A stretch of DNA of 54,249 nt, taken from NCBI GenBank assembly GCA_947646655.1, contig CANSHI010000010.1, forward strand, positions 1 through 54,249. The letters are read 5' to 3'. This document shows positions 6,364 through 14,085 of the stretch, piece after piece. The notes beneath the pieces were generated by a model. That model searched no databases and was not told the origin of the DNA. It was given only the letters and a program-made list of their open reading frames with translations. Source of the stretch: an uncultured bacterium (GTDB taxonomy: Bacteria > Bacillota_I > Bacilli_A > RF39 > UBA660). A program made the position numbers and the translations under genes. Every line of letters starts with the position of its first letter. Positions within the stretch are counted from its first letter, which is position 1.

Positions 6364-7264
<901 letters not shown>

Positions 7265-7274
<10 letters not shown>

Positions 7275-7448: not shown

Positions 7449-7724
7449 TTAGTTCGTAGTGTTCAGATAATATTCTAACTCAGATATTTGTATTTTATTC
7501 GCTAGATTTCTAATATAAATATCAGTAAAATAATTAAATACAAGAAATGTAATGCCTTTAATAATAACTCTATGAGGTTCTATAAAGTTTAAATTAGATT
7601 TATCAATTCTTCTAATGCTACCATTAATAAATATGGGCTTAGTTTTAGAGAACTGACAGATAAATTCTAATCTTTGTTTTAAACTTTCTTCCATTTCAAT
7701 TTCTTGTTTAATGACTTGAATCAT
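7449..7724 (-). CDS. small island protein, paralogue of the 13810-14085 product
   Basis: I start this at 7724 (91 aa) because AAGGAAGG lies just upstream on the minus strand; the longer frame to 7868 would run through a terminator hairpin. The product is nearly collinear with that of 13810-14085: LEFICQFSKTKP versus IEFICEFAKTTP, and NGSIRRIDKSNL versus NGNIRKIDKTNL. It looks like one helix followed by beta strands. I recognise no family. In both copies the gene sits downstream of the same kind of leader/terminator and upstream of a serine recombinase remnant, so it belongs to that element family. Confidence 0.7.
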   Translation of the reverse strand: MIQVIKQEIEMEESLKQRLEFICQFSKTKPIFINGSIRRIDKSNLNFIEPHRVIIKGITFLVFNYFTDIYIRNLANKIQISELEYYLNTTN

Positions 7725-7762
7725 AAACACCATCCTTCCTTTAGGATGATTTCTTTGTAACA

Positions 7763-7790
7763 ACAAAAAAACCAATCTTTCGATTGATTT
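7763..7790 (-). terminator. terminator/leader hairpin upstream of the 7449-7724 gene
   Basis: On the minus strand CAATC-GAAA-GATTG is followed by GTTTTTTTG. Just before it stands a segment (7802-7838) resembling 14168-14202, the sequence downstream of the displaced tRNA 3' end. It may be an old tRNA terminator or an attenuator for the small ORF. Confidence 0.55.
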
Positions 7791-7987
7791 TCTATATATC
7801 AATGTTCGAAAAGCTCGAACAGATTCGTCAATGAAGCGATTGTTTGTTAGGTTATGAACACTTAACAAACTGAGTTCTTAATAACTTGATGAATTCATTA
7901 TACATGATTTTAAAATAATAATCAATGTTTCTTACGACATTTCTTATAGCTTTTATGTTTATTTATTTAGCTACAATTCAAGCAAAA

Positions 7988-10306
7988 TCAACTAAATATT
8001 TCATCAATAGTAGACCACTCATCATTGCTATTAACATACAAATCTATATCTTCTTTATAGTAATCAGCTTTCCATTCTTCTGCTTCATTATCTATATAAG
8101 ACTTAATTGCATCATCAATATTAATATTGTAAAAAATATAGTCAAAGTCTATTATATTTTTATCTAAATTTATAGGAGTTTTTTTAATTATTTCATTCAA
8201 ATGACTATTAATTAATTGTTCTACACTATCTTTAATAAAAGGATAGTACTCATCTATGTAAATTTCTTTTAAGTCATCTATTGTGCCTTCATTTGTAGTA
8301 TCTATACTTAATGATAAAGTACTTATTTCGTTATCAACAAGTTCTTGCAAATTATCATTTATCAAATCTGTAACATAATCTTGAACTGCTTGTTTAAAAC
8401 TGTTTTGAAATATCAATAAATCATGATTAATAAGTTCACCATTCACTGTTTTATACCAATCTAGTAAATCCATGAGATTATCATAAGATAAATGAGTTGA
8501 TATATTTTCTAATTTATCTACAATAATACTTTCTAAATTATAAAACTTAACATATTCTTTTTCAATTAACTCAATAATCATATTTTCTTGACTCCATGAA
8601 AAGTCACTACACAATGTTTTAAAAGAGTTTTGTACATAATCTTTAAGTTTTAAATCTTTTAACTGATAATCAATCATTAGTTGAAAATAATAATATGCGG
8701 GAGTTTTATCAATTGAATTTAACAGAGATATAGTATTATTAAAAATCATTTCATAAATTACACTTTTATTCATTTGAAACTTTATTATTTGCTCAACAAA
8801 TTGTGCATTTTTAATAATGGCAATTTGTTCATTATCATTTTTTTCGATTTTTTTCTTCAAATAATCATTTAAAGATGGATTAATAACTGATATATATCTT
8901 TTTTCCCTATCAATAATGATTTTTATTAGAGAATTGGAAAGCCTGTTGATGACTTCATCAAATATATTAATGGTTGTATTTGAGGTTATAGTTAATATTC
9001 TTTTGTTAAATGCCTTTCTTAAAATATCAATGTCAATTTTACTATTAGTAAGCGAATAAAGTGTATTCATAAGAATTCTATCAGCTTCTTGTAGCCTATT
9101 TCTAAATTCATCTTCCCAAACACTATCTGGATTATTTAATTTTGATAAAATGTAATTTATATATTCTTCTGGTATAACATTTTTATAATTTTTAGCTTTT
9201 GTTACATATTCAATAATTCTAGGATTATAATTCTCATGTTTAATTAAATTTTTATAATTTTTATTAAATTTTATATTTTGTAGATATTCACTAGGTAATT
9301 CGTTAAAATATAAATGATTATATAATATTTCTGCTTTTTCAAGTGCAGACATTTTATCTAAATCTATTAGATAATTATCTTCTTCATATTTATCAATAAG
9401 ATTAGCAAAATCAACTGAGGAAGAATGTGCTTCGTTTATTATTGTAATTCGACTATTCATTATTATTTTTTTGTTTGGATTTCTTTCTACAAAGGAAATT
9501 AAAGTTTTCAATTCATTAGGTTGTTTATCATTCAATTTTAAATAATGCTGTCCTAAAAAATCATCTAGTAACACTATTTCTTTTTTTGCAGGATCTTGAT
9601 TTAATACATTTTTAATATCTTTTATATTATTATCAGTAACATATCTAACTGAATAATCTTTGCTAGCAAAAAATAGTAATAACATTTTTGAAATTGTACT
9701 TTTGCCAACACCAGGAGTTCCAATTATAATTATTATATTTTTATCTAGCAATTTATTTCTGCACTCAAAATATGCTTTTGTAGTAACAAAAAGTTTTGAG
9801 TAGGTTTCAATATCATTTAATATTTCATCGCAGTCAATAAAAATATGTTGATTTTGTATCATCGATAAAATGTTAGTAGAACACAACCATAATTTATAGT
9901 GTTTTTCTAATATATCTTTGTTTTCTTCTTTAGATAAAAAGTCATCAATTTCTGTTTTATCAATTATAAAAGATTTATCTTTCATGTAATTTGAAAATAA
10001 TGAATAAATTTCCCTTCTTTGTTGTGGCAATAGTTCGATACTGCAACATACATAATAATTTCGAGGGTCTAATGTCTCTACTTTAGTTATTTCTTTTTTT
10101 AAAGAGGTTCTTAAATTGCTATAAGTACTTTTTATATAGTGTTTAACTTGAACTAAATGTTGCATTGGTTCTTGGCTATCACATAAATCTATTCCTCCAT
10201 CACGTCCTTTTGCAAAACGATGTAATTTAAGTTCCAATTTCTTTTCCATTATATCTTTACATAACATTTCAAATTCGTAGTCGTTTAAATTTGATAAATT
10301 ATACAT
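7988..10306 (-). CDS. Mrr-like nuclease fused to nSTAND3-type NTPase (predicted defence effector)
   Basis: This 772-aa protein begins with an Mrr-like restriction endonuclease pattern: DYEFEMLCKDIM (10-21), GRDGGIDL (34-41, giving the catalytic Asp) and QVKHY (53-57, the Q-x-K of PD-(D/E)xK nucleases). A linker leads to a STAND-type P-loop NTPase with Walker A GTPGVGKST (196-204), Walker B IVLLDDFLGQ (244-253, the DDFLGQ form typical of nSTAND3) and an IIMNSR segment (281-286). Residues about 340-772 are a helical region without recognisable repeats, the expected place of a sensor. In Avs-like systems such a sensor senses phage protein and the NTPase then switches on the nuclease; that this one does so is inference. 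It starts 16 bp after the glycosylase gene, with GGAGTGG as ribosome site. Confidence 0.85.
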   Translation of the reverse strand: MYNLSNLNDYEFEMLCKDIMEKKLELKLHRFAKGRDGGIDLCDSQEPMQHLVQVKHYIKSTYSNLRTSLKKEITKVETLDPRNYYVCCSIELLPQQRREIYSLFSNYMKDKSFIIDKTEIDDFLSKEENKDILEKHYKLWLCSTNILSMIQNQHIFIDCDEILNDIETYSKLFVTTKAYFECRNKLLDKNIIIIIGTPGVGKSTISKMLLLFFASKDYSVRYVTDNNIKDIKNVLNQDPAKKEIVLLDDFLGQHYLKLNDKQPNELKTLISFVERNPNKKIIMNSRITIINEAHSSSVDFANLIDKYEEDNYLIDLDKMSALEKAEILYNHLYFNELPSEYLQNIKFNKNYKNLIKHENYNPRIIEYVTKAKNYKNVIPEEYINYILSKLNNPDSVWEDEFRNRLQEADRILMNTLYSLTNSKIDIDILRKAFNKRILTITSNTTINIFDEVINRLSNSLIKIIIDREKRYISVINPSLNDYLKKKIEKNDNEQIAIIKNAQFVEQIIKFQMNKSVIYEMIFNNTISLLNSIDKTPAYYYFQLMIDYQLKDLKLKDYVQNSFKTLCSDFSWSQENMIIELIEKEYVKFYNLESIIVDKLENISTHLSYDNLMDLLDWYKTVNGELINHDLLIFQNSFKQAVQDYVTDLINDNLQELVDNEISTLSLSIDTTNEGTIDDLKEIYIDEYYPFIKDSVEQLINSHLNEIIKKTPINLDKNIIDFDYIFYNINIDDAIKSYIDNEAEEWKADYYKEDIDLYVNSNDEWSTIDEIFS

Positions 10307-10322
10307 AAAACCACTCCAATTT

Positions 10323-11222
10323 CTATTTTATTTTTGCTATTTTTTCAAATATAGGGACATTTCCTTTATAACTTTTTGGAGATATAGGACTTGGGTGATA
10401 AATGGGTAATATTTTAAATCCATTAGTTTCATATATGTTACCAACTATATCTGAAAACTTATTAAATTTAAAATCAAGTAAATTCCTAGTTGGAAATTTT
10501 CCTAAGGTAATTATTAATTTAGGTTTCAATATCTTTAATTGCTCTAACATTATATTTTTACAATTACTAGAACAAGTTTTTAAATTCTTTCTTTCAAGTG
10601 GATAACATTTAACTGATTCTAAAAAAGTTGTTTCAAAAATATCTCTATCAATAATATCAAATAGTTTTTGTAATACAACTCCACTAGGTACTGTTTTTCC
10701 ATTTATATCACACCATAATTTATGACTCTTTCTCCAACCATTATTTGCAGGAGCTTCTCCAACTAAAACTATATCGTTGTCTTTACCTAGAAATACTGTT
10801 GCATCATTAGGGAACTTATCAACTAATTTATCACAAGATTTGCAAGCGTATATTTTTTTATCAATTTGCTTTAATAATTTCTTTATTAATCTTGCTTTTA
10901 ATGTGATATATCTATTTTTTGTGTCCTCACTTAATATTTTTTCTCTTTCAATTATTTCATAATTCTTATAGTCTACTTCATGATTGAATTGGTTTGAAGT
11001 TAAATCTATAACTTTATTTTCTATTAAATTGAAATAATGACTAATCCCATCAACTTGAATCTTACATATATTTCCATCAAAATAATCATTAATAATTAGA
11101 GATGTTATTGCACACATACCAAAACATTTATTATTTTCATTCCAGTCATCTTGAACTTTAGGATAACATAAATCTTTTGAGTAGCATTCTAATAATACTT
11201 TTTGTATATTTTCAATGTTCAC
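10323..11222 (-). CDS. YunG-like domain fused to Fe-S uracil-DNA-glycosylase-like domain
   Basis: This 299-aa protein starts at GTG 11222 behind GAGGTG. Residues 1-85 resemble YunG: NKCFGMCAIT (Cys37), SHYFN (His62) and VIDLTSNQF (Asp73), spaced like a papain-type Cys-His-Asp triad. Residues 125-299 have the UDG-superfamily pattern: CKSC (127/130), GEAPANNGW (155-163) as motif 1, VKCYP (Cys206) with Cys217 or Cys221, LIITLGKFP, and HPSP (276-279) as motif 2. Four such cysteines bind a 4Fe-4S cluster in family-4 glycosylases. The enzyme would recognise uracil or another altered base in DNA. It is the first gene of an operon with the nuclease-STAND gene, so base sensing or excision in a defence role is a reasonable guess. 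Confidence 0.82.
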   Translation of the reverse strand: MNIENIQKVLLECYSKDLCYPKVQDDWNENNKCFGMCAITSLIINDYFDGNICKIQVDGISHYFNLIENKVIDLTSNQFNHEVDYKNYEIIEREKILSEDTKNRYITLKARLIKKLLKQIDKKIYACKSCDKLVDKFPNDATVFLGKDNDIVLVGEAPANNGWRKSHKLWCDINGKTVPSGVVLQKLFDIIDRDIFETTFLESVKCYPLERKNLKTCSSNCKNIMLEQLKILKPKLIITLGKFPTRNLLDFKFNKFSDIVGNIYETNGFKILPIYHPSPISPKSYKGNVPIFEKIAKIK

Positions 11223-11246: not shown

Positions 11247-11275
11247 ATTATACCAAAATTGGCTATTCTTGTCGC
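11247..11275 (-). promoter_or_regulatory. promoter of the glycosylase / nuclease-STAND operon
   Basis: On the minus strand GCGACA, a 17-bp spacer and TATAAT, with an extended TGG before the -10, lie 25 bp before the GTG start. This suggests steady SigA-type expression. Both genes downstream are intact while the flanking recombinases are not. Confidence 0.65.
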
Positions 11276-11292: not shown

Positions 11293-12481
<1,189 letters not shown>

Positions 12482-13809: not shown

Positions 13810-14085
13810 TTAAAGGCGATTTTTCAAATAATCTTCTAGTTCTGATAGTTTTATCTTATTAGATAAGTTTTCGATAAATATTTCGTTAGAATAATTAAAT
13901 ATTAGAAATGTTATATCTTTTATAATAATTCTATTAGATTCAATATATGTTAAGTTTGTTTTATCTATCTTTCTAATATTACCATTGATAATAGTAGGTG
14001 TTGTTTTAGCAAACTCACAAATAAATTCAATTTTCTTCTTTAAATCTTGTTCAATAGGTAGTTCTTCCGTAATAATATTTACCAT
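13810..14085 (-). CDS. small island protein, paralogue of the 7449-7724 product
   Basis: This 91-aa protein starts at ATG 14085 behind AAAGGATGG. It shares its whole length with the 7449-7724 product (KKIEFICEFAKTTPTIING, RIIIKDITFLIFNYSNEIF). Both genes lie downstream of a hairpin with a T-run and a common leader element. Here that leader directly adjoins the displaced tRNA-Gly 3' end at 14195, so the gene sits where the first gene of an integrated element would be. The function is unknown; an accessory role in integration or control is a guess from position only. Confidence 0.7.
   Translation of the reverse strand: MVNIITEELPIEQDLKKKIEFICEFAKTTPTIINGNIRKIDKTNLTYIESNRIIIKDITFLIFNYSNEIFIENLSNKIKLSELEDYLKNRL

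Follow-up and report, generated by a model that had tools for sequence, protein, structure and literature searches.

The window, by which is meant the whole stretch of 54,249 nucleotides that was analysed, comes from a gut bacterium. It holds a gene in which, as read from the sequence, a predicted DNA-base-cutting enzyme with a remodelled pocket is joined to a small YunG domain in one protein, apparently on mobile DNA (Table 1). The matches of this protein to PF24585 and PF03167 both exceed the curated cut-offs. For instance, the YunG profile is matched with 106.3 bits against a cut-off of 27, and positions 2-115 of its 116 are covered. The fusion had been proposed in a preliminary description of this DNA and is real, as seen from the two domain matches and from its recurrence over full length in other MAGs. 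Behind a recombinase remnant, the gene is preceded by a promoter-like box of its own, with a Shine-Dalgarno-like GAGGTG ahead of the start codon as ribosome site. Promoter-like sites are as numerous across the region as in shuffled sequences.

Table 1. Position of the fusion gene, its domains and key residues, and the adjoining genes in the window
Feature	Position	Strand	Remarks
YunG-UDG fusion gene	10323..11222	(-)	299 aa, GTG start
YunG domain (PF24585), aa 3-116	10875..11216	(-)	E 1.3e-30; mean pLDDT of model 96.6
UDG-superfamily domain (PF03167), aa 148-284	10371..10781	(-)	E 6.4e-13
Promoter-like site, GCGACA-17-TATAAT, TG before -10	11247..11275	(-)	just upstream of the fusion gene; consensus only
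Cys37 codon	11112..11114	(-)	first residue of helix 37-48 (model); GMCA motif
His62 codon	11037..11039	(-)	within strand 60-67 (model); HYFN motif
Asp73 codon	11004..11006	(-)	directly after strand 70-72 (model); DLT motif
Cys127 and Cys130, first putative 4Fe-4S pair	10833..10844	(-)	aligned to family 4 cysteines
Cys206 to Cys221, second putative 4Fe-4S pair	10560..10607	(-)	aligned to family 4 cysteines
Glu156 of motif 1 (GEAPANNGWRKS)	10755..10757	(-)	= Tth UDGa E41 (alignment; PMC5387724)
Glu202, at the family 4 uracil-reading Asn (N80)	10617..10619	(-)	Glu in 29/29 relatives, Asn in 4/4 family 4
His276 of motif 2 (HPSP)	10395..10397	(-)	= catalytic H155 of Tth UDGa (PMC5387724); 28/29 relatives
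nSTAND3 NTPase, PADLOC PDC-S73	7988..10306	(-)	downstream of the fusion; weak Mrr-like nuclease domain
Large serine recombinase remnant, without resolvase domain	11293..12186	(-)	upstream of the fusion gene
Second broken large serine recombinase, two ORFs	6364..7274	(-)	beyond the STAND gene

Neighbourhood and recurrence of the fusion gene

The stretch with the fusion gene is flanked by broken large serine recombinases and is therefore most likely a mobile island. A 184-aa protein is encoded directly upstream of the fusion in L083 (4393-4944; L numbers designate loci) and in about seven other fusion loci, and its tail matches that of the recombinase at 11293-12186 of the window (29.7% over 74 aa, E 1e-9). 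Small paralogous proteins with the pattern INGSIRxIDKxNLxxIE (7449-7868 and 13810-14085 in the window) recur at island edges, and an ORF similar to them is found in L109 (7077-7361).

In a scan of 84,980 genomes, the fusion was found in about 28 loci at identities of 62-91%, almost all of them in MAGs of gut Bacilli. Full-length relatives in other MAGs have identities of 62-92%, other genera of the same family also encode full-length fusions, and one Clostridiales MAG carries the fusion at about 43% identity. Since other MAGs retain it at full length, the fusion is no assembly accident. When the glycosylase halves are placed in a tree, the fusion rows group together (support 95/95), with YunG later lost twice (in the second copy of L044 and in L048), and UDG-only relatives are earlier branches. 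A single origin of the fusion seems likely rather than proven, because some branches are weakly supported and the L111 branch is long. Broken copies were also seen (L045/L087, L050/L109, L105, L110); they are as expected for an accessory gene, though MAG errors may contribute. The full-length query had no relatives among phage records and viral contigs, while viral contigs do hold YunG-only relatives.

The preliminary description had placed the fusion next to a STAND nuclease and had suggested from this setting that the YunG part is a hydrolase or deamidase which could act in defence. A STAND gene indeed adjoins it on the same strand, with a gap of 16 bp; its product matches PDC-S73 over the full length and has a weak Mrr_cat match (E 1.7e-5). 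The pair, however, recurs solely in L091. Moreover, the STAND gene was detected in three of 233 genomes of the family, two of which have no fusion match. A stable STAND operon was therefore rejected, and the downstream gene, although it matches PADLOC PDC-S73, is no stable partner of the fusion. It is thus highly improbable that YunG is a papain-like deamidase or protease processing a protein or a nucleotide to trigger the STAND nuclease. The short gap, the common strand and the same gene pair in L091 would agree with such a role, but the pair is confined to two loci, other fusions have other neighbours, STAND relatives occur in genomes that gave no fusion match, and the fold searches described below gave no papain-like match.

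What is left of the proposed defence link is a loose one, as fusion genes often neighbour defence genes. Encoded downstream of them are type I restriction, a DpdE/ZorD-like SNF2 protein, PDC-S06 with an exonuclease, a PD-T4-6-like kinase, and GmrSD-like, HipA-like and HNH proteins. PADLOC models were matched by eight of ten downstream genes, which were chosen by hand and not at random. In a rough contrast, given that many PADLOC families overlap, the 46 non-redundant fusion neighbours matched 173 families, compared with 13 for 79 genes adjoining other YunG genes. As other fusions have other defence neighbours and the STAND gene is rare, the link of this UDG-superfamily gene is with defence-rich islands generally and not with STAND. 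Other fusions adjoin NUDIX, Ham1, MazG-like or P-loop kinase genes, and such neighbours fit repair as well as defence.

Residues and partners of the YunG domain

To our knowledge, the YunG family (PF24585) has no known activity or function, and nothing relevant was found on YunG in the open literature searched. Cys37, His62 and Asp73 had been put forward as a papain-like triad in the motifs GMCA, HYFN and DLT, and the three residues are located there. They are also conserved among YunG homologues. In a set of 97 YunG rows, Cys37 was found in 94/96, His62 in 96/97 and Asp73 in 95/96, but the count for Cys37 is biased since most rows had been fetched by a pattern containing that cysteine. The residues were hence recounted in 40 rows that HMM or tblastn searches had found without use of the motif (23 rows, the five loci L002-L006 and 12 rows from an actinobacterial order). 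Here, Cys37 is kept in 38, His62 in all 40 and Asp73 in 39. Next to the triad, G35, T40, N65, Q78 and F79 are common to the YunG domain of the fusion and the PF24585 family. Asp73 is replaced by Val in L042. In one genus, Cys37 is replaced by Asp (L060, 6580-7023) or by Ala (L065, 1084-1464) with His and Asp kept; these two loci are natural tests of the need for the cysteine.

According to alignment and model, Cys, His and Asp are conserved in the papain/transglutaminase order, the Cys opening a helix, and the modelled order of secondary-structure elements would be compatible with a transglutaminase/papain core. Judged by the register of the hairpin, His62 and Asp73 may be diagonal neighbours on one face. 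Compared by eye with the transglutaminase core (PF01841), YunG likewise has a Cys at the start of a helix, a His in an HxWN-like motif starting a strand and an Asp after the next strand. In transglutaminases of the same phylum, HAWNxV...D resembles the HYFNxI...DLT of YunG. In contrast, Foldseek found no match for the YunG model in the PDB (best E 0.9) and none below 0.001 among viral models, an HMM search of PDB sequences gave no significant match, and hhalign against rows from related genomes returned probabilities of 0.9% for transglutaminases and 0.1% for NlpC/P60. Membership in the papain/NlpC group was rejected on these results. The triad thus proved conserved, in an order and a secondary structure that would suit a papain-like enzyme, whereas a papain fold is unproven.

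YunG is widespread, with members in Bacilli, Actinomycetota, Pseudomonadota, CPR bacteria, DPANN archaea and viral contigs, and has no match in solved structures by these searches. In bacteria, DPANN archaea and CPR, many YunG proteins consist of this domain alone (115-150 aa). Others are fused to an Ada-like zinc domain (L120, 4992-5618; L125), an HD domain (L123, 2400-3365) or a cytidine-deaminase-like domain (L152, 4323-5291). In L160 (4523-6003), YunG is found in overlapping genes between a deaminase and EndoIII; in L073 it precedes Ham1 and a second UDG-superfamily gene, in L134 its partner is NT5C, and NUDIX genes lie near many YunG genes. The common theme of these predicted partners is DNA bases and nucleotides. 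The repeated pairing with glycosylases, deaminases, Ada-like and HD domains and Ham1 provides a first testable guess for YunG, namely base or nucleotide chemistry.

Several further observations were made around YunG genes. In L148 (4905-6134), YunG has a C-terminal part which, by eye only, looks like radical SAM. A conserved neighbour of 340-360 aa with the motif FRYKEKYI and no Pfam match occurs in L079 (2949-3974), L159 (3928-4971), L136, L137 and L141; in L137 and L149 it has GHKL-type ATPases nearby, and it is perhaps a separate system. In the viral contigs L076, L077, L078 and L080, YunG (about 150-163 aa) directly precedes a 659-aa protein in a phage-like operon. Second UDG-superfamily-like proteins with FVFMNPTxRN are encoded near YunG in L073 (4871-5542) and near a UDG-only relative in L048 (220-861); by eye, their N-P-S/T-R pattern recalls N50-P51-S52-R53 of Brig3, an enzyme considered in the last section.

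YunG might also be a non-enzymatic binding domain, for nucleic acid or with a metal site formed by Cys37, His62 and Asp73, which recruits or regulates the attached catalytic module. Such a role would agree with its joining to many unrelated catalytic or DNA-binding modules, with the lack of a fold match to any hydrolase in the above searches, and with the genus in which the cysteine gave way to Ala or Asp while His and Asp were retained. Many YunG proteins, however, have no attached module, and the near-invariant Cys, His, Asn65, Asp and Gln78 resemble an active site. We regard this explanation as unlikely.

The pocket of the glycosylase half

The best match of residues 115-299, by sequence and by fold, is family 4 UDG (UDGa; PDB 4zbx, 1l9g, 1ui0). 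Among solved structures, family 4 UDGs and UdgX come closest, with 4zbx and 4zby as the top structural matches. The UDG fold of the model, motif 1 and the His of motif 2 place this half in the UDG superfamily. In the alignment, it has the four cysteines of family 4, and C127, C130, C206 and C221 are invariant in 29 relatives.

The pocket and catalytic residues of Thermus (Tth) UDGa are E41, G42, E47, F54, N80, N89 and H155; N80 forms bonds with the N3 and O4 atoms of uracil, and E47 excludes thymine (PMC5387724). In a sequence alignment at about 20% identity, they correspond to E156, A157, G162, W170, E202, R211 and H276 of the fusion. The half therefore differs from family 4 UDGa by Glu202 for N80, Arg211 for N89, Gly162 for E47 and Trp170 for F54, as well as by a longer loop past motif 1. 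Glu202, Arg211 and Trp170 are invariant in all 29 relatives, and the position of His276 is occupied by Tyr in L111. The gate alignment is unsure (Gly162 or Trp163) because the model is at its poorest in the motif 1 loop, with pLDDT < 50 at 158-160. The NCBIfam models of family 4 gave 45.9 bits against a cut-off of 125.3 and 53.6 against 250, and in the tree the glycosylase clade is separate from family 4 on a long branch (100/100). UdgX has as hallmarks an R-loop, KRRIH, with the cross-linking His, and a GEQPG motif. Both are absent here, and the UdgX model scored 22.7 bits against 189.95. No family 5 structure was among the matches listed.

In UNG, the matching change of Asn to Asp results in a cytosine-DNA glycosylase, and shrinking or removing the gate residue leads to thymine excision (PMC11289083); the Glu found here is longer than that Asp. 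Glu202 together with an open gate points to an amino-bearing, 5-substituted pyrimidine. This suggests as predicted substrate a modified pyrimidine, perhaps a 5-substituted cytosine, over plain uracil. Moreover, the genome that carries the fusion encodes an ordinary GQDPYH UNG, as do five relatives, and plain uracil repair is therefore already covered.

A house-cleaning role has to be weighed here. The fusion may serve repair and excise an endogenous base damaged by deamination, oxidation or alkylation, while YunG acts on the damaged base or nucleotide; the defence vicinity would then reflect an insertion hot spot of small genomes. We take this as a serious rival, though a somewhat unlikely one. 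In its favour, the partners of YunG elsewhere are nucleotide and repair enzymes (L160, L073, L152, L134, L123), and NUDIX, Ham1 or MazG-like genes lie near the fusions of L083, L084, L096, L098, L099 and L104. Yet the gene is patchy, with full-length or partial matches in a minority of the family genomes, and its broken copies and changing defence neighbours are unusual for housekeeping repair. Furthermore, the pocket is unlike that of every uracil-reading family 4 row used.

Proposed role and comparison with the Brig enzymes

Both halves of the protein belong to known superfamilies, and neither their pairing nor the pocket was found described in the open literature searched. As predicted from its sequence, the fusion protein probably processes DNA bases as an accessory enzyme, possibly against phages. 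More specifically, we tentatively favour, short of holding it probable, an accessory and mobile enzyme that would excise modified bases, assisted by YunG as a putative hydrolase. As to substrate, YunG chemistry and anti-phage role, we infer the following course. The Fe-S UDG-superfamily half, which has lost the uracil-reading Asn and the gate Glu that bars 5-substituted bases, would use His276 as leaving-group residue and would excise a modified pyrimidine, thereby producing abasic sites in the DNA of an invader, like Brig1 and Brig3. For YunG, we would expect a small hydrolase or transferase with a Cys-His-Asp set, acting on the same base or its product; for example, it may unmask the modified base ahead of excision, as BapA does for Brig3. 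The glycosylase clade with its changed base-reading residue provides new candidates for the young group of anti-phage DNA glycosylases, with a concrete substrate prediction.

A bolder version can be drawn, which we consider quite improbable. The fusion would be a single-chain unmask-and-excise defence enzyme, in which YunG is a new hydrolase fold stripping or altering a hypermodified phage base and the glycosylase, re-tooled for amino-bearing 5-substituted pyrimidines, excises that base. If this were true, YunG would be a general nucleobase or nucleotide hydrolase of bacteria, DPANN archaea and phages.

Brig1 and Brig3 belong to the UDG superfamily and act on T-even phages, whose modified cytosines they excise (PMC11078745, PMC13160076). 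The best structural match of Brig1 is the family 4 UDG of S. tokodaii (PMC11078745). Brig3 acts after BapA has removed glucose, which sets a precedent for a hydrolase working with a glycosylase (PMC13160076). Two differences stand out. The partner in the fusion is a fused YunG domain and not the two-barrel BapA, and Brig3 has its own motif, N50-P51-S52...E55 (PMC13160076), in contrast to GEAPANNGWRKS in the fusion. The likeness is drawn from published descriptions, and we do not assign the fusion to the Brig group. This likeness would lie in the UDG superfamily, an altered specificity, the setting in defence islands and, for Brig1, a family 4 UDG as the nearest structure, to which Brig3 adds a hydrolase partner.
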